From Anaerolineales bacterium (GTDB lineage: Bacteria; Chloroflexota; Anaerolineae; Anaerolineales; UBA4823), in contig PQAL01000014.1 of the NCBI GenBank assembly GCA_003105035.1, positions 62,001 to 126,000 on the forward strand: 64,000 nucleotides of DNA. The letters are read 5' to 3'. Below, piece after piece: positions 5,267 to 14,964 of the stretch. The notes beneath the pieces were generated by a model. The model did not search any database and had not been told where the DNA came from. It worked only from the letters and a program-made list of their open reading frames with translations. Position numbers and translations under genes: made by a program. Each line of letters starts with the position of its first letter. Positions within the stretch are counted from its first letter, which is position 1.

Positions 5267-5486
5267 GGCGTCGGATAAGGCGCTATCGTCATTATCGGTT
5301 TTTATGATTGTTGGTGGTCATAATTGTCTCCAGAGCAGGCGACAAGTGGTGAAAAACTTGCAACAATACGCTAACTTGCTCAATGTCTACAATGGCCAAG
5401 GACAGGGTGAAGAGTTTTTTTAAGCGCAATTATTTTAGATAAACTTATTAAAAGATGCCTTTGATCAGTTGCCTGGAGATTGTGTG

Positions 5487-8400
5487 ATGCGTAAAAATAA
5501 AATTATCATTTACACCATCATCGCGTTTGTGTGCCTTATCATATTTTCCATTCCAGCAGCTTCTTCTGCTTTATCTGCTGAACCAACCAGGCCGGAAAAC
5601 CAGTCGATTAACGATCAGATTGAGGAGGCAGTATTACAGGCGATTGGTATAAACAGTCGCTATATTCAGGGCGACGCGGTTAATAATCTCCAGGTTTCCG
5701 ATATTAAAGTTTCGCAGGATCAACAGTGGGCTACAGCCTGGGTAGTCTATTACGATCCACAGATTGGTGCCATCCTGCCCACCGAACCGGCCCTGGCAGT
5801 TGTGCATAATGTTGAGGGTACATGGTTTGTGTATCTGCCGACAGATCCCGGCTGGCAGGCGGCCCTCTTAGCAGTGCCCGATGACCTGTTAACAAAAGAG
5901 GAAAAGGACATGTGGTTGGCTATGAACCAGGGTACGGAAGAAGCATTCCCAACCCAGAGCGGATATTACCTGCCCTGGCGTGGTGGTCAGACTGCATACC
6001 TGTCGCGCAGTGTCGGTCATGATGCGGATTTTTCAACCGCACATTATTCCTTCGATTTTTTTGTCCCTGGCACTACGGTTTGTCCAAGCGGAGGGGCAGG
6101 GAACATCCTAAACGGTGCGGGAACGACGGGTTTAAATTTTGGCCTCTATGCTTCTCGAGCTGCAACCGTCTGGGGATGGGATGATTCGGTAGAGGATTGT
6201 AACCATAGTAAGGTGAATTTCATCGTCCTACGGAATGTGGATGATCCCAGTATCTACCAGCTATACATGCATCTCTCACAGGGCAGCATTCCGGCGACTC
6301 TGAAGACGGTTGGTGCACCTGTTGCCAGAGGGCAGTTCATTGGTTTAGCGGACAACACAGGCAACAGTACCGGCTCACACCTGCACTTCCAGATCGAACG
6401 CCAGCCCACCTGGCCTGAAGCAAATCCATACTGGAATAGGGCCCTCGATGTGACTTTCAGTGATGTTTCGATCAATGGCGGCAGGCCCCGCGTAAATCCA
6501 CCGGATGCAGCCTACTGCCTGCCTACTGATATTTGCAATGTTTTTCAGCAAACCTACATCTCTGGGAATTATTTCCAGGGAGATATGCAACCTCCAATTG
6601 GTGAATTGATCGGGGTAAACTACGGACAGGTTATCACGTCTCAGACGATCTCGCTCAGTGGTTGGGCAGCTGATGATATCTCCGGACTAGATTATGGGCA
6701 GTTAATTGCGAATTTCGACGGATCATGGCACAATCTTGGCCCACGCTTCAACCCCGACTTTACCTATTCCTGGGATCTGTGCAACCCAGGGTTACCTGTG
6801 CCTAACGGGCCAATCAGTCTGGCGCTACTCTTGTTTGATGTGGCTGGCAACTCTGCCCCACGAGTAGATTTAACCAACATCACCAAAAGTTATTCCTGCC
6901 CCGTACCACCGACAATCTGCATTCCTGGAGCAAACCAGGTCACGTTATTTGAAGATCCTTTTTACCATGGAGGCTGTGTGAAATTTGGCGTGGGAGAGTA
7001 CCCTACAGGCCAATCGCTTGATCCACTAGGAGATAACGATGTTGAATCGATCCTCGTGGGGAATGGTGTTATTACTACGCTGTATTCAGATGAAAACTAT
7101 TCCGGTCATTCTCTGGCAATTTTGGATGGCACTGCGTTTATCCAATATGGGTGGGTTCCCGCCAACTCACTATCATCGATGAAAGTCGCATCACGAAATC
7201 TCGCTCCACTCACGCCGATTATTGTCTATCCGGTCTCTTCGGCATTAATTCGAGATGGTGATGTCATCCCGTTCTCATGGCGAAATGCAGGAGGGGTGAC
7301 TGAATACCAGATTCAGATTTTCAGAGGTGCTGACCTGTACAAAACATTCCCCTGGCAATCAGATCCAGTCTTATTTGTAGATTCATTGGCTGAAGGGAAT
7401 TATAGCTGGCGAATCCAGGGAAGAAACGGGGTTGGGATAAGCCCATGGACTGCAAAAACGGACTTCTCCATCCAGTCACCGATTGTATTCCCACCCAATG
7501 TAACTGCCCCCTATAGCGATACAATGGAGCATACCGAATCGGCTTGGGTACCAGATGGAATCTGGGCGTACAAGACCAATCCCACTATGGCTCATAGCGG
7601 GTCAGCCAGCTGGTGGTTCCAAAATGAATTTGGTGATTATGCTAACGGCCAGCCGAACTCAGGTTCATTGACCTCGCTACCAATCCGCATTCCCAGAACG
7701 GGTTTTTATCTACGCTTTTATTACCGCGTTGAAACTGAGACTACTGGCGCAGCTTGGGATCAACGCTGGGTACAGATTTCTGTTGATGGCGGGCGTTTCC
7801 AAAACCTTGTGCAGCTATCTGATGAGCCGCAAATATCTGAAACTGGCAGCTGGATGCGTAGCAAGGCAATCGATCTGACAGGTTATAACGGTCACACCAT
7901 CCGTGTCCGCTTCCATTTTTCAACCCTGGATGCAACTGCCAATAATTATGCTGGTTGGGGAATTGATGATGTAGGCATCACGGATACTCCTCCGCCTACC
8001 TGTTCTGATAACCGACTGGATGAGACCCCGGTTAACGCCTATTTATTAGCTTATGATACGAACATCAAGGTACCTGGCCAGATTTGTCCCAATGGTGATT
8101 ATGATTACTATAAGTTCTTCGGACATGCAGGCGATCGCATCGTTGCTGACATTGATGCTATGGTAAACGGTTCACCCCTGGACTCTTTTCTCTACCTGTT
8201 GGATACCGATGCTAAGACTGTCCTGGCTGAGAACGACGACGAGATATACGCCACACTCCGTGATCCTTTGCTCAGCTACACTCTACCAGACGATGGAACG
8301 TATTACCTTAAGCTGAAAGCGTGGAAACATCCTTTGTTGGGGGGCGATACTTATAACTATACCATTCGTCTATATGAAGATCATAATGCGCCTTCCCTGG

Positions 8401-9437
8401 CGATCACCTGGCCTACTCAGAACATATACCTGCCAGATTCTGAAATGACCCTTTCAGCTAATGTCAGTGATGTCACGAATGGGGTAAACCGGCTCGAATT
8501 TTATTGGCACTCATCAGATTGGTTGTCAGGTATTTGGCAGAAGATTGACACTGATCGGGATGGGACTGATGGATGGAGCGTAGTTTTCAATCCTGCTGGA
8601 CAACCCGAGGGGAATGAAGGCGCGATCTTCGCCCAGGTCATCGATATGGCAGGGAACTGGGTTGGCAGTGGCGTGTGGAACCTGGGGATAGATAAAACTC
8701 CCCCGACAACTGCAATGAACACCTTGCCAGGCACGCAGACGAGCAATGCCTTTTTACTGACCTGGACCGGATCAGATAATCTGTCTGGCATTGATTACGT
8801 AGAGATCCAGCAGAAAATAGGCGGAGCCGCCTGGATTACCTTGCCTCCGATAGATGGTTCTTTAACCCAATCCTGGATCATAGCGAATGCTGGAAATGCA
8901 TATTCGTATCGCATGCATGGTGTAGATCTTTCGGGGAATACCGAGAATTACCCATCATCTGCTGAAACGGCAACTTCCATTCCTGACGCAAATGTCCTGT
9001 GTTATGCTCCTGACTCCTTTGATAGCTCTGGTGATGATGATAACACCCCTGAGCATGCCAGCCAAATCTTCGCTGATGGTGCCAGCCAGGTTCACAATTT
9101 CTGTAATCCGCTCGCACCAAATTTCCAAAATGATGAGGACTGGGTTAAGCTCTCTGTTTCACCTGGGCAGAATATCCTGGTCAAAAGTATGAACACCAGT
9201 CTGCCAAGCGCTACAGTGATCAGCCTATATGCGCAGGATGGGCACACGCTCCTTGCGGAGGTCACCCCAGCACAGTTTGGCGACGATTCCTTCCTCCTAT
9301 GGACTTCCGATCGTGAAGGGTTGGTCTATCTTCGCCTCCATCACCTGGATGGACGTGTAATCGGGAGTAAAGTTGGCAGTACTCTTTCGGTAAAGATCGT
9401 CGAATTGACATTTATGCCGGTTGTGTTGGGGAAATAA
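5487..9437 (+). CDS. secreted M23-type protein with crystallin-like and PPC modules
   Basis: A 1,316-residue exported protein. The ATG at 5487 is chosen because GGAG lies eight bases before it. A TTG at 5469 would add six residues. A signal peptide (KNKIIIYTIIAFVCLIIF) is followed by an N-terminal domain and then an M23/LytM-like domain with HYSFD near residue 186 and SHLHFQIE near residue 297, the HxxxD and HxH zinc-ligand pattern. These enzymes cut peptidoglycan or other glycyl peptides. Next come a beta/gamma-crystallin-like segment (about 480-570, VTLFEDPFYHGGCVKF), an Ig/fibronectin-like stretch, a MAM-like jelly roll (about 680-840), a PPC-like module (YDYYKFFGHAGDRIVADID), Ig-like repeats and a final PPC-like module. 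It ends eight bases from the convergent ion-channel gene. The substrate is unknown and the accessory domain names are by resemblance. Confidence 0.75.
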   Translation: MRKNKIIIYTIIAFVCLIIFSIPAASSALSAEPTRPENQSINDQIEEAVLQAIGINSRYIQGDAVNNLQVSDIKVSQDQQWATAWVVYYDPQIGAILPTEPALAVVHNVEGTWFVYLPTDPGWQAALLAVPDDLLTKEEKDMWLAMNQGTEEAFPTQSGYYLPWRGGQTAYLSRSVGHDADFSTAHYSFDFFVPGTTVCPSGGAGNILNGAGTTGLNFGLYASRAATVWGWDDSVEDCNHSKVNFIVLRNVDDPSIYQLYMHLSQGSIPATLKTVGAPVARGQFIGLADNTGNSTGSHLHFQIERQPTWPEANPYWNRALDVTFSDVSINGGRPRVNPPDAAYCLPTDICNVFQQTYISGNYFQGDMQPPIGELIGVNYGQVITSQTISLSGWAADDISGLDYGQLIANFDGSWHNLGPRFNPDFTYSWDLCNPGLPVPNGPISLALLLFDVAGNSAPRVDLTNITKSYSCPVPPTICIPGANQVTLFEDPFYHGGCVKFGVGEYPTGQSLDPLGDNDVESILVGNGVITTLYSDENYSGHSLAILDGTAFIQYGWVPANSLSSMKVASRNLAPLTPIIVYPVSSALIRDGDVIPFSWRNAGGVTEYQIQIFRGADLYKTFPWQSDPVLFVDSLAEGNYSWRIQGRNGVGISPWTAKTDFSIQSPIVFPPNVTAPYSDTMEHTESAWVPDGIWAYKTNPTMAHSGSASWWFQNEFGDYANGQPNSGSLTSLPIRIPRTGFYLRFYYRVETETTGAAWDQRWVQISVDGGRFQNLVQLSDEPQISETGSWMRSKAIDLTGYNGHTIRVRFHFSTLDATANNYAGWGIDDVGITDTPPPTCSDNRLDETPVNAYLLAYDTNIKVPGQICPNGDYDYYKFFGHAGDRIVADIDAMVNGSPLDSFLYLLDTDAKTVLAENDDEIYATLRDPLLSYTLPDDGTYYLKLKAWKHPLLGGDTYNYTIRLYEDHNAPSLAITWPTQNIYLPDSEMTLSANVSDVTNGVNRLEFYWHSSDWLSGIWQKIDTDRDGTDGWSVVFNPAGQPEGNEGAIFAQVIDMAGNWVGSGVWNLGIDKTPPTTAMNTLPGTQTSNAFLLTWTGSDNLSGIDYVEIQQKIGGAAWITLPPIDGSLTQSWIIANAGNAYSYRMHGVDLSGNTENYPSSAETATSIPDANVLCYAPDSFDSSGDDDNTPEHASQIFADGASQVHNFCNPLAPNFQNDEDWVKLSVSPGQNILVKSMNTSLPSATVISLYAQDGHTLLAEVTPAQFGDDSFLLWTSDREGLVYLRLHHLDGRVIGSKVGSTLSVKIVELTFMPVVLGK

Positions 9438-9445
9438 TCCAACAT

Positions 9446-11326
9446 CTATCTCAGGAACACCAGCGCCGTCAGGCCAAAGGAAAGCAAGTACGCAAGTGGA
9501 TAGATGTAATTCATCGGTGCTTCCAACCGGTCAGCCTTCTCACGCTGATCATTCTGCTCCAACCACTTGAAGTAAACATTCATGGCAACGACGATCGTGT
9601 TTATTATGAATGTGATCGCCATGATCGCATCCATGAAGGTCAGGTATCCCATGCGTGGGTAATTATCTCCCAGGCTGAAGCTAAATGCTATGAAAAGCAG
9701 CAAGTTTCCTGTGGCGATTTCAATTCTCCGGGAGTAATCCTTCAAGAAGAAGGTGATATACGACACAATGATAATCAGTAAAATGGGGATGAAAACACGG
9801 AATACGTAATAATCCAAATGGCGAGGAGCAGAGAAGTGAAAGGCGAATCGTGAGGTTGGCATGATCCTGCTCGATGTCACAGTGCTGATTTGTGTGTCGA
9901 ATCCATTCAACACAAATTCATCTTCTCCATTCTCCGGGTCGATGGCATTGAAGTTTTCCATTGGAACAAAGACGTACCTGTCTTCTGGGTAAAACATATC
10001 CACATAGATATAAAAGTCTTGCTTGTCGAATGGATATGCCGTCCAGTCGAAATTCAACTGGAAATTAGTGGTGAACCGTTCACCGTATGTCGCGTGCCCA
10101 TTAGAAGCAATCTCAACAATTCGGTTTTGGGTCCAGCGATTCCCCTGTTGGTTAAAAAAGGTGAAATCTGGCCAGTTTCCATTGACATCGGCAAGGAATT
10201 TGTTGAAGTCGTTCTCGGTGTATATCTTCGTGGTACAGTTACATTCATCTGGATTAAACGCCAGTGCAGGGTCGGTCCATTCCAATTTAAGCGTGCCAAC
10301 ATCATACATGATCTCATTAGGTTGGTCGATGTTCACGATCTGCTGCAGCTTGAAGCCTACTTTAACCGGTATAGCTAGCTTCAATAAGCTTTCAGTGTTG
10401 GCTTGCACTTGGCCCAACAGCACATCCGGTGCATTTAAACCAACCTGCAATTGATAATCACCACTCGTGGTTTCCCCATTAATCATAGCTGCCTGGATAT
10501 CCAGGGTGAAATTTTGTCCTCCATCAGGAAAGTTCTGTTCGATTTTTGGAGATGATGCCTGCCCGTTCAGGTTGGTAGCATTGACAGGCTTGTTGCCGTA
10601 ATCGCGCAGTATCAGGATGGGTTTAAGGTTTCCACTGGCTGCCTGCAGGTTGATATACAAGGTGTCCCCCGGTTTGACGTCACTCAACCTGACAGTTGTT
10701 TGTGGATTTTCTCCGCCCAAGTTACCACTCATCGTCTGGATCAGCTGGGTTTCCAACACCGCTTGATCCTGCACTGCGATGACTGCATCTGTAGATTCAA
10801 CAGTGCCATCCAGTACATTTGGCGAGTTGATCCCGAGTAGCAACCTGTAGGACCCAGATGTAGTCCGTCCTGCTGCAGAAAGGGAGCTTGAAGCTATCAA
10901 GTAGTAATCTCCCATTTCAGGTACAGTGAATGACAGTGCAGCCGAATATCCCGGACCACTGTCATCGTCCCATGCAAGTAAATACTTATCTCGTAATGCG
11001 GGTAATTCGAGCAGTGGAGTGGTTGAATTCGCCACCAGGGTGGTAACCTCTTTTTTATATTTCTCCAATGTGTTGTTCAAGTTTTGGCCATCAATAAGTA
11101 CTCCAACAAACGGATCGAGGTTTCCAGAAATGTTTTCCATGAAAACATCCAGAGTTTGGCCTTTTTGTAATTTCTCCACTAAGAAGACATCCACCTGATC
11201 AGGTGCCAATGTACCGTTAACTTCCTGAATAGACGGAGTATCTTGAGCTAGAACGATTCCGAGTGGTACGAATAAAGAAATCAGGGTGGTTACTAATAAA
11301 ACGGTGTGAGTGACATACCGAGACAT
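9446..11326 (-). CDS. pentameric ligand-gated ion channel with extra N-terminal domain
   Basis: A 626-residue prokaryotic Cys-loop-receptor homologue. After a signal peptide there are two beta-rich, PPC-like segments (about 35-170 and 180-310) not present in the short channels GLIC and ELIC. The extracellular domain follows, with the diagnostic YPFDKQDFYIYVDMF near residue 448. Four membrane helices come last: M1 about 507-528, M2 about 533-552 (RRIEIATGNLLLFIAF), M3 about 560-585 and M4 about 607-626. As is known for bacterial members, the disulfide-bonded Cys loop is absent, although a CNC pair lies near residue 365. The architecture recalls DeCLIC, a bacterial channel with a two-lobed N-terminal domain. 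GAGGAGA precedes the ATG. It sits 68 bases downstream of a potassium-uptake membrane subunit on the same strand, so co-transcription is likely. Ligand and ion selectivity are not readable, though a Glu at the inner end of M2 would fit cation flow. Confidence 0.88.
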   Translation of the reverse strand: MSRYVTHTVLLVTTLISLFVPLGIVLAQDTPSIQEVNGTLAPDQVDVFLVEKLQKGQTLDVFMENISGNLDPFVGVLIDGQNLNNTLEKYKKEVTTLVANSTTPLLELPALRDKYLLAWDDDSGPGYSAALSFTVPEMGDYYLIASSSLSAAGRTTSGSYRLLLGINSPNVLDGTVESTDAVIAVQDQAVLETQLIQTMSGNLGGENPQTTVRLSDVKPGDTLYINLQAASGNLKPILILRDYGNKPVNATNLNGQASSPKIEQNFPDGGQNFTLDIQAAMINGETTSGDYQLQVGLNAPDVLLGQVQANTESLLKLAIPVKVGFKLQQIVNIDQPNEIMYDVGTLKLEWTDPALAFNPDECNCTTKIYTENDFNKFLADVNGNWPDFTFFNQQGNRWTQNRIVEIASNGHATYGERFTTNFQLNFDWTAYPFDKQDFYIYVDMFYPEDRYVFVPMENFNAIDPENGEDEFVLNGFDTQISTVTSSRIMPTSRFAFHFSAPRHLDYYVFRVFIPILLIIIVSYITFFLKDYSRRIEIATGNLLLFIAFSFSLGDNYPRMGYLTFMDAIMAITFIINTIVVAMNVYFKWLEQNDQREKADRLEAPMNYIYPLAYLLSFGLTALVFLR

Positions 11327-11394
11327 AAACTTTCTCCTCAGGTCATAGCTTAACTTTGACGTGTAGTAACTATGTGAATCATGTGATTGAGAAT

Positions 11395-12801
11395 TTACCC
11401 AATTAGGATCGATTCCTCTGGGTACTCGACCAGATTCTTTCGCCTATCACGTCCGAGTAAGGAAATCATGATGGTGATTGCACCCAAACGGCCTGCGACC
11501 ATAGTGATCATGATAATGAATTGGCCGATGGTGTTCAATCCACTTGTGATACCGAGGGATAACCCCGTGGTTGAATACGCAGAAACGACTTCGAATAATA
11601 CTTGTTCTAAATTGAACGGGTTCGTCAGCAGGATCAACCACGTTCCCACAATAACCAACATCAAGCTGATCACAAAAACAACAAGTGCACGAATAATCAG
11701 GTTACTCGGTAGCGAGTGTTTGCCAACCTGAATTTTATCCAGCCCACGGGCATAACTGATAATTGCCAGCCACAGGATCACAAAGGTGCCCGTGGTGATA
11801 CCACCTCCAGTCGAAGCGGGAGCAGTACCAATGAACATCAGGCCGATCAATAATAAAATTGATGGGAAATTAAGCTCGCTGAAACCGGGTAAACTTGCGA
11901 AGCCCGCTGTCCTGGCCGACACCGATTGAAACCAGGCCAGGATAGACCTTTGACCAAAAGACATACTACTCAATACGCCAGGCTGGCGATACTCGGAGAT
12001 CAATAATCCTATCCAACCAATGAAGATAAGGATTAAAGTGATACTGATCGTGATGCGGGTGTGCAAAGAAAATGGTCGATGGCGGCGAAATATTAGGTCC
12101 ATATAAATGGGAATTCCCAGGCCTCCCAGGATGATCAACCCTCCAAGGATAAGCATACTGAGATTATCGGTTGGAATCCCATTGGGGTATTCGGGAAGAC
12201 CATAAAAGAGGTCGAAACCAGCATTGCAATAAGCCGTAACGGCATGGAAAATGGCATAAAAGATAGATTTCCCAGCTGGGACAATTCCAGCGAGCTTCCA
12301 GTGTAAGAATAGCGATGCGGCACCTAGACCTTCGATTAATAGCATTAACCCAATCGCCCGGAGCATTATCTTGATGATATCCTCCGATCGGTCTAAACCC
12401 AGAGAGCTGGTCACTGCCAGGCGATCACCGAGAGAGATTTGGTGCCCGATCAAGCGAAAGAATAGCGCAACAGACACGATAAATCCCACCCCGCCGACCT
12501 GGACTAATGCCAGGACAACCAGTTTACCCCATATGGTCAGCTCGGTGCTGATTGGGAAAAGGCTTAAGCCGGTGACTGCTGAGGCTGAAGTGGCTGTAAA
12601 AAGGGCTTCCATGAATGATAATCTTCGGTTGGCTGCACCGGGAATGAGCAGCAGGACGGTACCTATTGCGATCAACATGAGTAAACCCACTAGCAACTGA
12701 AGGGCTACCGGGAATTGTCGTCCTTCGGGAGTACCAGTAATCTGACGGATTTGGATCCTACGCTGCCTGTTAGCTTTGGATGCAGCACGCGAAATTTTCA
12801 T
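11395..12801 (-). CDS. Trk/Ktr potassium uptake membrane subunit
   Basis: A 468-residue polytopic membrane protein of the TrkH/KtrB superfamily, the ion-conducting subunit of potassium uptake. Family landmarks include MEALFTATSASAVTGLSLF near residue 64 (the first P-loop), VGGVGFIV, YAIFHAVTAYCNAGFDLF (second P-loop), SVSARTAGFASL (third) and VSAYSTTGLSLGITSGLN (fourth), each with a conserved filter glycine. The size is closer to KtrB than to proteobacterial TrkH. The start overlaps the stop of the upstream regulatory subunit gene by four bases (ATGA), so the two are translationally coupled. The ligand-gated channel gene follows downstream after 68 bases. Whether K+ or Na+ drives transport is unknown. 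Confidence 0.92.
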   Translation of the reverse strand: MKISRAASKANRQRRIQIRQITGTPEGRQFPVALQLLVGLLMLIAIGTVLLLIPGAANRRLSFMEALFTATSASAVTGLSLFPISTELTIWGKLVVLALVQVGGVGFIVSVALFFRLIGHQISLGDRLAVTSSLGLDRSEDIIKIMLRAIGLMLLIEGLGAASLFLHWKLAGIVPAGKSIFYAIFHAVTAYCNAGFDLFYGLPEYPNGIPTDNLSMLILGGLIILGGLGIPIYMDLIFRRHRPFSLHTRITISITLILIFIGWIGLLISEYRQPGVLSSMSFGQRSILAWFQSVSARTAGFASLPGFSELNFPSILLLIGLMFIGTAPASTGGGITTGTFVILWLAIISYARGLDKIQVGKHSLPSNLIIRALVVFVISLMLVIVGTWLILLTNPFNLEQVLFEVVSAYSTTGLSLGITSGLNTIGQFIIMITMVAGRLGAITIMISLLGRDRRKNLVEYPEESILIG

Positions 12802-13463
12802 TGCAGGTTACTGAATTCTACCAATCGTTCCTTATTACCCACCAGCACCAGAATATCATTTTGTAAGATGTGGGTGTTCAGGTCAGGACTAATAATCAGT
12901 TCATCGCCCCGCAGGATGAGCACCACAATCACATCATATTCCTCACATTCCTTAATCCCTTTGCCTAGCAACCAGGTCGAGGGTTTTATCTCGATCAGGT
13001 GATAATCCTGGCTTAACGGAAGCTCTTCAAGAATTCCCGGGATGCTAAGCTCCTCTGCTAGCCGGTGGCCACTCTCTTCATCTGGCAGGATCACCCGGTC
13101 AGCACCAATCCGTAATAATATCTGCCGGTGTCTATCCGTATTTGATAGGGAGATAACCTGGGGTATCCCCAGGTTTTTTAGCGTGGAGGTGATCAAGGCA
13201 CTCGCTTCAAAATTCCTGCCAATCGCTACCACCACTGTCTGAAAGGCGGTGATATCCACCTGGCGTAAAGCAGCTTCATTGGTGGCATCCAGGATGACAG
13301 CCTCATGAATTTCGTCTGTGATTGCCTTTACCCTCTGCGAGTCGTTGTCTATACCCAACACCGGATGGCCGAGTTCTTCCAACCGGCGTGCCAGGCTATT
13401 ACCGAACCGTCCCAACCCGATAATGGCAAATTCCTTCTCTTTATTTTTTGCGAGTGATGGCAT
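12798..13463 (-). CDS. Trk/Ktr potassium uptake regulatory subunit (RCK)
   Basis: A 221-residue cytosolic gating subunit of the KtrA/TrkA type, with one RCK_N Rossmann domain and one RCK_C domain. FAIIGLGRFGNSLARRLEELG is the nucleotide-binding glycine motif, and VLGIDND supplies the acidic residue at the end of the second strand. The C-terminal half (PSTWLLGKGIKECEEYDVIV) is the ligand-sensing TrkA_C domain. The start at 13463 is preferred over an upstream in-frame ATG at 13532, because GGAGAG lies just before it and the extra N-terminal residues are not family-like. Its stop overlaps the membrane-subunit start. By analogy with KtrA it should bind ATP, ADP or NAD(H) as an octameric ring. This is family knowledge, not seen here. 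Confidence 0.9.
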   Translation of the reverse strand: MPSLAKNKEKEFAIIGLGRFGNSLARRLEELGHPVLGIDNDSQRVKAITDEIHEAVILDATNEAALRQVDITAFQTVVVAIGRNFEASALITSTLKNLGIPQVISLSNTDRHRQILLRIGADRVILPDEESGHRLAEELSIPGILEELPLSQDYHLIEIKPSTWLLGKGIKECEEYDVIVVLILRGDELIISPDLNTHILQNDILVLVGNKERLVEFSNLQ

Positions 13464-13712: not shown

Positions 13713-14453
13713 TCAGCCGGGCTGAAGCAGCATCATCGCAACCGCTACGCTGAAGCCAATGACCAGGAATAAACCGGTTTCCTTTCCGCCATGTTCAAAG
13801 GATTCTGGGATCATCGAATCAGTCAACATGACCAGTAATGCTCCTGCCGCGAACGAGTCAACCATGGCACCTGTAGCACCAGGTAGGACAGTCGCCAGTC
13901 CATATCCGAAGACTGCTGCAAGAATACTCAAACCACAAACTGCCAACCATAAGCGTGTGATCTTGGCTTTCGCCCAGCCGCTTTTTAACATTCCTGCGGT
14001 GCCTCCCAGGCCTTGGGGTATGTTGCTGATTGCTACGGCGAAAATAAAGGCCAAGGAGACTTGGGGTGAGTGAACCAGGGAGAGCCCGAGCACCAGGGAT
14101 TCTGGTACACCGTCGAGTAGGGAACCAAGCAAGATACCCAACCCGGATCCACTGGCCTGCCCGCCTTCCATGTCCATTCGATCTTCACCTCCGAGTTTAT
14201 CCACCCATTGATCGGCAAAGTAGAAGGTCAAAGCACCGAGGGCGATTCCAACCGCTATTAATATATATTTTCCCTTCACATCCAATACAGCACCGAGAAT
14301 TAGCTGATACGTTGCCGCGCTGATAATCGCACCTGCACCGAAGGCCATGATTAATGCCGTCCATTTATCGTTGATTAAATTACGATATGCCAAGACCATG
14401 CCGATCAACAAAGTAACCGTAGCTAAAAAACTCCAAAAAGCTGCTTGTCCCAT
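13713..14453 (-). CDS. ZIP-family-like metal permease
   Basis: A 246-residue membrane protein with about eight predicted helices. It resembles the ZIP divalent-metal permeases: LLDGVPESLVLGLSL sits where ZIP proteins carry their helix-4 metal motif, and AVAISNIPQGLGGTAGM replaces the helix-5 motif. The canonical His residues of those motifs are absent (Asp and Asn stand in), so metal specificity, or even transport, may differ from classical zinc importers. A short loop after helix 3 (GGEDRMDMEGGQ) is acidic and Met-containing rather than His-rich. The start at 14453 is chosen over 14552 because AAGGACAG precedes it and the extra 33 residues are basic and not membrane-like. It is separated from ktrA by about 250 bases. 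Confidence 0.65.
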   Translation of the reverse strand: MGQAAFWSFLATVTLLIGMVLAYRNLINDKWTALIMAFGAGAIISAATYQLILGAVLDVKGKYILIAVGIALGALTFYFADQWVDKLGGEDRMDMEGGQASGSGLGILLGSLLDGVPESLVLGLSLVHSPQVSLAFIFAVAISNIPQGLGGTAGMLKSGWAKAKITRLWLAVCGLSILAAVFGYGLATVLPGATGAMVDSFAAGALLVMLTDSMIPESFEHGGKETGLFLVIGFSVAVAMMLLQPG

Positions 14454-14589
14454 AATACTGTCCTTGTGCTCAAATAAGTGCAAAATTCTAGATTTCTTTG
14501 GTCTTAACGATTGACGATGAGATGGATAAAAATTTGTCCTTCGTCTACACAATTATTTCCTGTTTACCTAATCATTTCACCTGCTTCAG

Positions 14590-14964
14590 CTAGGATTGCT
14601 TGTGAGCGCGTTGCGAGCGGACAAAGCGGATGCGGTCGAAGAGAGCTAGCAGGATCACAATACCATTAATCAAATAGACAATCGTAAAAACCTTTCCCAC
14701 GGGAGTCTTGGGTGTGAAATCTCCATACCCCACCGTGCCCAGGCTGACAACACAGAAGTAGATTGAATCTAAAAAACTCCAGCCTTCAAACCAATGGTAG
14801 AATAGTGCCCCCAGAAACAGAGTGGCCAGGGCATAGAAAATAGTTGGCCTTGAATCGGGATCACTCAACACATCTAATAAAAATAAGCTCCTGACAGGTT
14901 GGTATTTCTTTACCCGATTAACAACAATTTCTTCCTCTTGATTCGTGCGTTGTTTCTCTCCCAT
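14590..14964 (-). CDS. small two-transmembrane potassium channel
   Basis: A 124-residue protein with two membrane helices flanking a pore loop. The potassium selectivity filter is intact: VSLGTVGYGDFTPKTPVGKV. The preceding pore helix is LDSIYFCV. The outer helix spans about residues 45-65 and the inner helix about 95-115, after which a short basic tail ends the protein. There is no RCK, voltage-sensor or cyclic-nucleotide domain, so it belongs with minimal Kch/Ion_trans_2 proteins that would assemble as tetramers. GGAGGAGA lies seven bases before the ATG. It lies between a metal permease and a META lipoprotein on the same strand, extending the ion-handling block. Gating stimulus unknown. Confidence 0.85.
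   Translation of the reverse strand: MGEKQRTNQEEEIVVNRVKKYQPVRSLFLLDVLSDPDSRPTIFYALATLFLGALFYHWFEGWSFLDSIYFCVVSLGTVGYGDFTPKTPVGKVFTIVYLINGIVILLALFDRIRFVRSQRAHKQS

Follow-up and report, generated by a model that had tools for sequence, protein, structure and literature searches.

A DeCLIC-type ligand-gated ion channel gene next to ktrAB in an Anaerolineales genome

Gene layout of the locus

The window, which is the whole 64-kb stretch of DNA that was analyzed, contains three consecutive genes on its minus strand that are read in the order ktrA, ktrB, and the gene for a subunit of a pentameric ligand-gated ion channel (Table 1). The coordinates, strand, and lengths of these genes, the 68-base gap in front of the channel gene, and the overlap of the ktrA stop with the ktrB start as ATGA were all correct in the original prediction. 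A pore protein of the TrkH/KtrB family (PF02386, E 6e-42) is encoded together with a single-RCK KtrA, which carries TrkA_N and TrkA_C within 221 aa, and the genes overlap, as in the known KtrAB potassium uptake system. The ktrAB pair itself shows no special features, and only its neighbor is unusual.

Table 1. Coordinates of the features at the channel locus and of related genes elsewhere. Positions refer to the window unless a locus number precedes them.
Feature	Position	Strand	Evidence or remark
Channel gene, DeCLIC-type pentameric ligand-gated ion channel subunit, 626 aa	9446..11326	-	PDB 6v4a (DeCLIC) E 8e-113; Foldseek 9ev1 E 1.9e-62
Transmembrane domain, residues 503-626, four helices	9449..9820	-	Predicted model; PF02932 weak
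M2 pore helix, E536 column	9668..9739	-	Glu/Asp in every relative, DeCLIC, and sTeLIC
Receptor-type extracellular domain, residues 318-502, with Pro-loop YPFDKQ (431-436) and loop-F EDE (468-470)	9821..10375	-	PF02931 E 2e-12; sTeLIC 6fl9 Z 29.9
Cys-x-Cys C362, C364, extracellular domain	10235..10243	-	Nearly all NTD-bearing relatives and DeCLIC; absent in sTeLIC
N-terminal lobe 2 (NTD2), jelly roll, residues ~190-305	10412..10759	-	Predicted model; also Tk-SP 3afg Z 12.0, pre-peptidase C-terminal domain 5sv5 Z 10.6
N-terminal lobe 1 (NTD1), jelly roll with inserted helices, residues ~28-175	10802..11245	-	6v4b DeCLIC NTD1 Z 20.6
Calcium Site 1, D121-D122 (= DeCLIC D123-D124)	10961..10966	-	Identical 31/31
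Calcium Site 1, D71-P72 (= DeCLIC D76-P77)	11111..11116	-	Identical 31/31; site definition PMC12664993
Signal-peptide-like hydrophobic segment, residues 1-27	11246..11326	-	Model helix 3-24, then low-confidence linker; inferred from sequence
ktrB-channel gap, 68 nt	11327..11394	-	GAGGAG ribosome-binding site at 11334-11339; no terminator-like hairpin
ktrB, TrkH/KtrB-family potassium transporter subunit, 468 aa	11395..12801	-	PF02386 E 6e-42; TIGR00933 E 2e-75, below cutoff
ktrA, single-RCK regulatory subunit, TrkA_N + TrkA_C, 221 aa	12798..13463	-	
Triple-fusion channel ORFs	L027:67-3729; L017:1-3240; L022:1-3270; L020:61-3309; L019:79-3039		

The three genes had been regarded as probably one transcript. 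Within the 68-nt gap, no terminator-like hairpin was present and the folding was no better than that of shuffled sequences, a good ribosome-binding site preceded the channel gene, and the number of promoter-like sites in the region of the channel/ktrB gap was not above that in shuffled sequence. This makes co-transcription of ktrAB and the channel gene in this genome plausible. The adjacency of ktrB and the channel gene is by itself unremarkable because, within the 64-kb window and with mechanically called ORFs, 17 of the 39 neighboring ORF pairs were located on the same strand with a gap of no more than 68 nt.

Upstream of ktrA and on the same strand, a gene for a ZIP-like transporter and another for a two-helix potassium channel occupy positions 13713-14964, so that several cation-transport genes follow one another on the minus strand. 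On the opposite strand, positions 5469-9437 encode a secreted protein of 1322 aa that carries M23 peptidase and PPC domains, and the end of this gene is 8 bases from the stop of the channel gene. A search with the protein as query indicated a single copy of the channel gene in the genome.

Domain order and fold of the channel

Comparison with solved structures by phmmer gave DeCLIC, the Desulfofustis channel (PDB 6v4a, 6v4s, 9ev1, 9ev8), with an E value of 8e-113 over channel residues 15-616, and sTeLIC with 3e-73 for the channel core. The protein homology is far beyond chance. An AlphaFold model built from 31 aligned relatives had a mean pLDDT of 86. The best Foldseek match of this whole model was again DeCLIC (9ev1; E 1.9e-62, TM 0.82/0.85), and VIA-align superimposed 6v4a on the model with a Z of 29.3 over 577 residues. 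The N-terminal region folded alone matched DeCLIC with a Z of 23.8 over 255 residues at 3.4 A, and the isolated DeCLIC NTD1 (6v4b) matched it with a Z of 20.6 over 151 residues, so that the two N-terminal jelly-roll lobes have the fold of those in DeCLIC. The other matches of this region, to Tk-SP, collagen-binding, and pre-peptidase C-terminal domains, were far weaker than that to DeCLIC.

The receptor-type extracellular domain was recognized by PF02931 with 47.3 bits against a cutoff of 26, and the expected YPFDKQ loop was found in it. The membrane-domain model PF02932 reached 16.2 bits against a cutoff of 28.1; the four membrane helices, as originally proposed, were seen in the predicted structure at residues 504-527, 531-553, 564-591, and 595-624. 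The two additional N-terminal segments had been called PPC-like. Two beta lobes are indeed present, and the Pfam PPC model (PF04151) scored 18.5 bits, below its gathering cutoff of 25.9, and did so for the first lobe only. Judged by the model, PPC-like is a fair term as a description of the fold only.

Alignment and predicted structure together establish the domain order NTD1-NTD2-receptor domain-four helices, the match of the fold, and the conserved residues. They identify the channel as a full-length relative of DeCLIC, a known channel type with two extra N-terminal lobes, and the original description as a DeCLIC-like channel with extra N-terminal domains was borne out by the phmmer result, the structure prediction, and the conserved calcium-site residues. 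DeCLIC shares the full domain order, all acidic ligands of calcium Site 1, the equivalent of its E347, an acidic loop F, and an acidic residue in the same M2 column. It differs in that it comes from another phylum and is about 33-35% identical to the channel in structural alignments, in a one-residue gap of the channel at DeCLIC P434 near Site 3, and in loop-F E480, which is Asp in the channel. sTeLIC (PDB 6fl9) shares the receptor and membrane domains with 41% identity and a Z of 29.9, but possesses neither the N-terminal lobes nor the Cys-x-Cys motif. A disulfide is not mentioned in PMC12664993. GLIC and ELIC share the pentameric ligand-gated channel core fold; the identity to GLIC is about 20%, and both are without N-terminal lobes. 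The pre-peptidase C-terminal and collagen-binding domains (Tk-SP 3afg, ColG 1nqd, 5sv5) have the jelly-roll fold of a single lobe in common with the channel but are joined to proteases and not to channels.

A different ligand-gated channel was observed in Anaerolineales relatives. It is encoded by one ORF of about 990-1220 aa and is fused at the N terminus to Peripla_BP_6, a class-I periplasmic binding protein. In the triple-fusion channels (Table 1), a C-terminal SBP_bac_1, a class-II solute-binding protein, follows the last membrane helix. In the passages of PMC549065 considered, PBP-I fusions and separate neighboring PBP-II genes are described, not such a triple fusion.

Calcium sites and gating

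DeCLIC is named in PMC12664993 (2025) as the only prokaryotic ligand-gated channel with a partially characterized N-terminal domain. It is inhibited by Ca2+ (PMC9897478, PMC12664993), and its cryo-EM structures place calcium in Site 1 (D76, P77, D123, D124, Y129), in Site 2, which is looser, and at an interface of the receptor domain that involves E347 and loop-F E480 (PMC12664993). The Site 1 of DeCLIC is reported to overlap with a calcium site of Tk-SP (PMC12664993).

Calcium coordination in the channel was mapped from its alignment to DeCLIC, and conservation was counted in the alignment of the 31 full-length relatives. The Site 1 ligands D71, P72, D121, D122, and Y127 all align with those of DeCLIC, and the first four were unchanged in each of the 31 sequences. 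Residues of the interface calcium site are also present, namely E338, E468, D469, and E470; E468 and E470 in loop F were unchanged in 31/31 and E338 (= DeCLIC E347) was kept in 29/31. The one-residue gap in the alignment is at DeCLIC P434, which is a ligand of Site 3 through its backbone.

By analogy with DeCLIC, the protein is most likely a cation channel that is kept closed by extracellular Ca2+. Two jelly-roll lobes lie at the outer face of the receptor domain, and extracellular Ca2+ would bind to Site 1 in lobe 1 and to a site that lies between the beta1-beta2 loop and loop F. Bound Ca2+ would steady the N-terminal lobes and the closed pore. Loss of Ca2+, perhaps in combination with a low pH, would open the pore for a flow of monovalent cations.

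Evaluation of this mechanism needs to consider the PDB entries of DeCLIC at pH 5 with Ca2+, which include one with a title indicating an open form (9fth), so that control may not lie with Ca2+ alone. The main gate could be operated by protons as in GLIC or by alkaline pH and amines as in sTeLIC, with the N-terminal calcium site being structural. Besides 9fth, this is in agreement with a receptor and membrane core that is closest to sTeLIC, a channel gated by alkaline pH according to the PDB titles, and with the related jelly-roll domains of Tk-SP and ColG, which bind Ca2+ outside any channel. Both DeCLIC calcium sites are conserved in the channel, however, and not the N-terminal one alone, and DeCLIC itself is inhibited by Ca2+ (PMC9897478). 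A main gate other than Ca2+ is rather unlikely, and closure by extracellular Ca2+ is kept as the preferred reading.

Gene neighborhoods of DeCLIC-type channels

Relatives were collected at the family, order, class, and phylum levels of the genome and in a set of 84,980 species. This yielded about 52 distinct other DeCLIC-type loci in Chloroflexota, methanogen-type archaea, Xenococcus, Nitrospirota, and other bacteria. Because antisense genes of GC-rich loci are missed when ORFs are picked mechanically, ktr genes were also sought by tblastn and six-frame profiles; the window served as positive control in the search of the channel loci with KtrA and KtrB profiles. Neither ktrA nor ktrB was found by BLAST, tblastn, or profiles in the available flanks of these loci, which extended up to 10 kb per side and were often cut by contig ends. 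The contigs were often short, and the locus L041 was almost without flank, so that the absence of ktr covers the sequence at hand. The short contig of L041 carries two tandem DeCLIC-type channel genes of an Anaerolineae genome (L112:530-3276).

The sister channel in RBG_16_57_11 (support 100/99) had other neighbors and no ktr. Genes of the TrkH family were present in 21 of the 37 channel-bearing genomes, including that of the window, and near the channel gene in the genome of the window only; none was contained in the fetched other loci themselves. Seen from the other side, relatives of ktrB occurred in 25 of 400 genomes of the order, and among these only the genome of the window possesses a DeCLIC-type channel. 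The nearest relative of ktrB that was found is represented on its contig by the last 66 residues only, over which it reaches 80%, and it was followed 16 nt downstream by a gene for a SulP-family transporter (L087:220-1698). Among 400 genomes drawn from across the phylum, there was no additional DeCLIC-type channel at E 1e-40, and a literature search for Chloroflexi Cys-loop channels in connection with Trk found no paper. As far as these sequences reach, the adjacency of ktrAB and the channel gene is peculiar to this genome or lineage specific. A link between the channel and potassium uptake had been proposed, to be given up if relatives did not share the neighborhood; the order ktrA-ktrB-channel was conserved at 0 of the about 52 other loci, many of them cut by contig ends. 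A functional link is without comparative support, and the comparison gives no reason to think of the channel and KtrAB as a conserved functional unit.

The three genes might nevertheless form an ion-homeostasis operon in this lineage alone, in which the channel would pass Na+ or K+ when Ca2+ falls and KtrAB would restore potassium. The common strand, the short gap with its good ribosome-binding site and no terminator-like site, and the cation-transport genes upstream of ktrA are all compatible with such an operon. Gaps this short between same-strand genes are frequent in the window, however, ktrAB was found at no other DeCLIC-type locus within the flanks available, the channel is missing at the nearest ktrB relative found, and the distribution among the 25 ktrB-bearing genomes of the order points in the same direction. 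An operon of this kind is decidedly improbable. With high probability, the protein is instead a DeCLIC-type, presumably homopentameric, ligand-gated cation channel with Ca2+-dependent closure that is not a conserved functional unit with KtrAB; the ktrAB genes upstream would make a Ktr-type potassium uptake system that may share the channel transcript in this genome.

Other gene families recurred around DeCLIC-type channels. DUF1269 genes were found at 6 of 38 loci compared to 0.44 expected from genome-wide counts (Poisson 7e-6) and P-type cation ATPase genes at 5 of 38 compared to 0.67 expected (Poisson 6e-4), with Poisson values that are a lead only because the neighbor families were selected after inspection. 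Genes for MscS-like proteins occurred at 5/38 and for the AI-2E family at 3/38 loci. The DUF1269 genes, about 14-fold the expected number, were located within about 10 kb around the channel gene (L045, L051, L054, L060, L076, L077, and also L134) in Chloroflexota and methanogen-type archaea, and P-type cation ATPase genes were near the channel at L047, L049, L051, L054, L063, and L148. A potassium channel of the two-helix type was close to a DeCLIC-type channel at L043, L065, and L134 besides the window; with three loci and no computed expectation, it is not claimed to be a recurrent neighbor.

These counts, together with SulP-family genes beside the channel gene in two genomes (L064:8077-9837 and L136:6080-7741), could mean that DeCLIC-type channels are part of gene groups for ion and envelope stress comprising DUF1269, P-type cation ATPases, MscS-like proteins, and SulP, with ktrAB as the version of this genome. 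Since the families were picked post hoc, most loci are without such a neighbor, and no DUF1269 gene is on the contig of the window, membership in such groups is unlikely. The extended form, that DeCLIC-type channels of Chloroflexota, methanogen-type archaea, cyanobacteria, and other phyla, with their invariant N-terminal calcium site, are sensors of outside calcium in these stress groups and have KtrAB as a partner here, is slightly less likely again.

The channel described here is a bacterial relative of the ion channels of nerve receptors. A link to potassium, if true, would have supplied a physiological role; it is not backed because the neighborhood is not conserved in the available flanks. 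Structurally, the channel is clearly identified; its calcium site is strongly conserved, and its gene neighbor is specific to the lineage. Within the N-terminal domain, conservation is highest at Site 1, across phyla and into the archaea, and calcium binding at this site is, judged from this conservation, likely the general purpose of the DeCLIC-type N-terminal domain.
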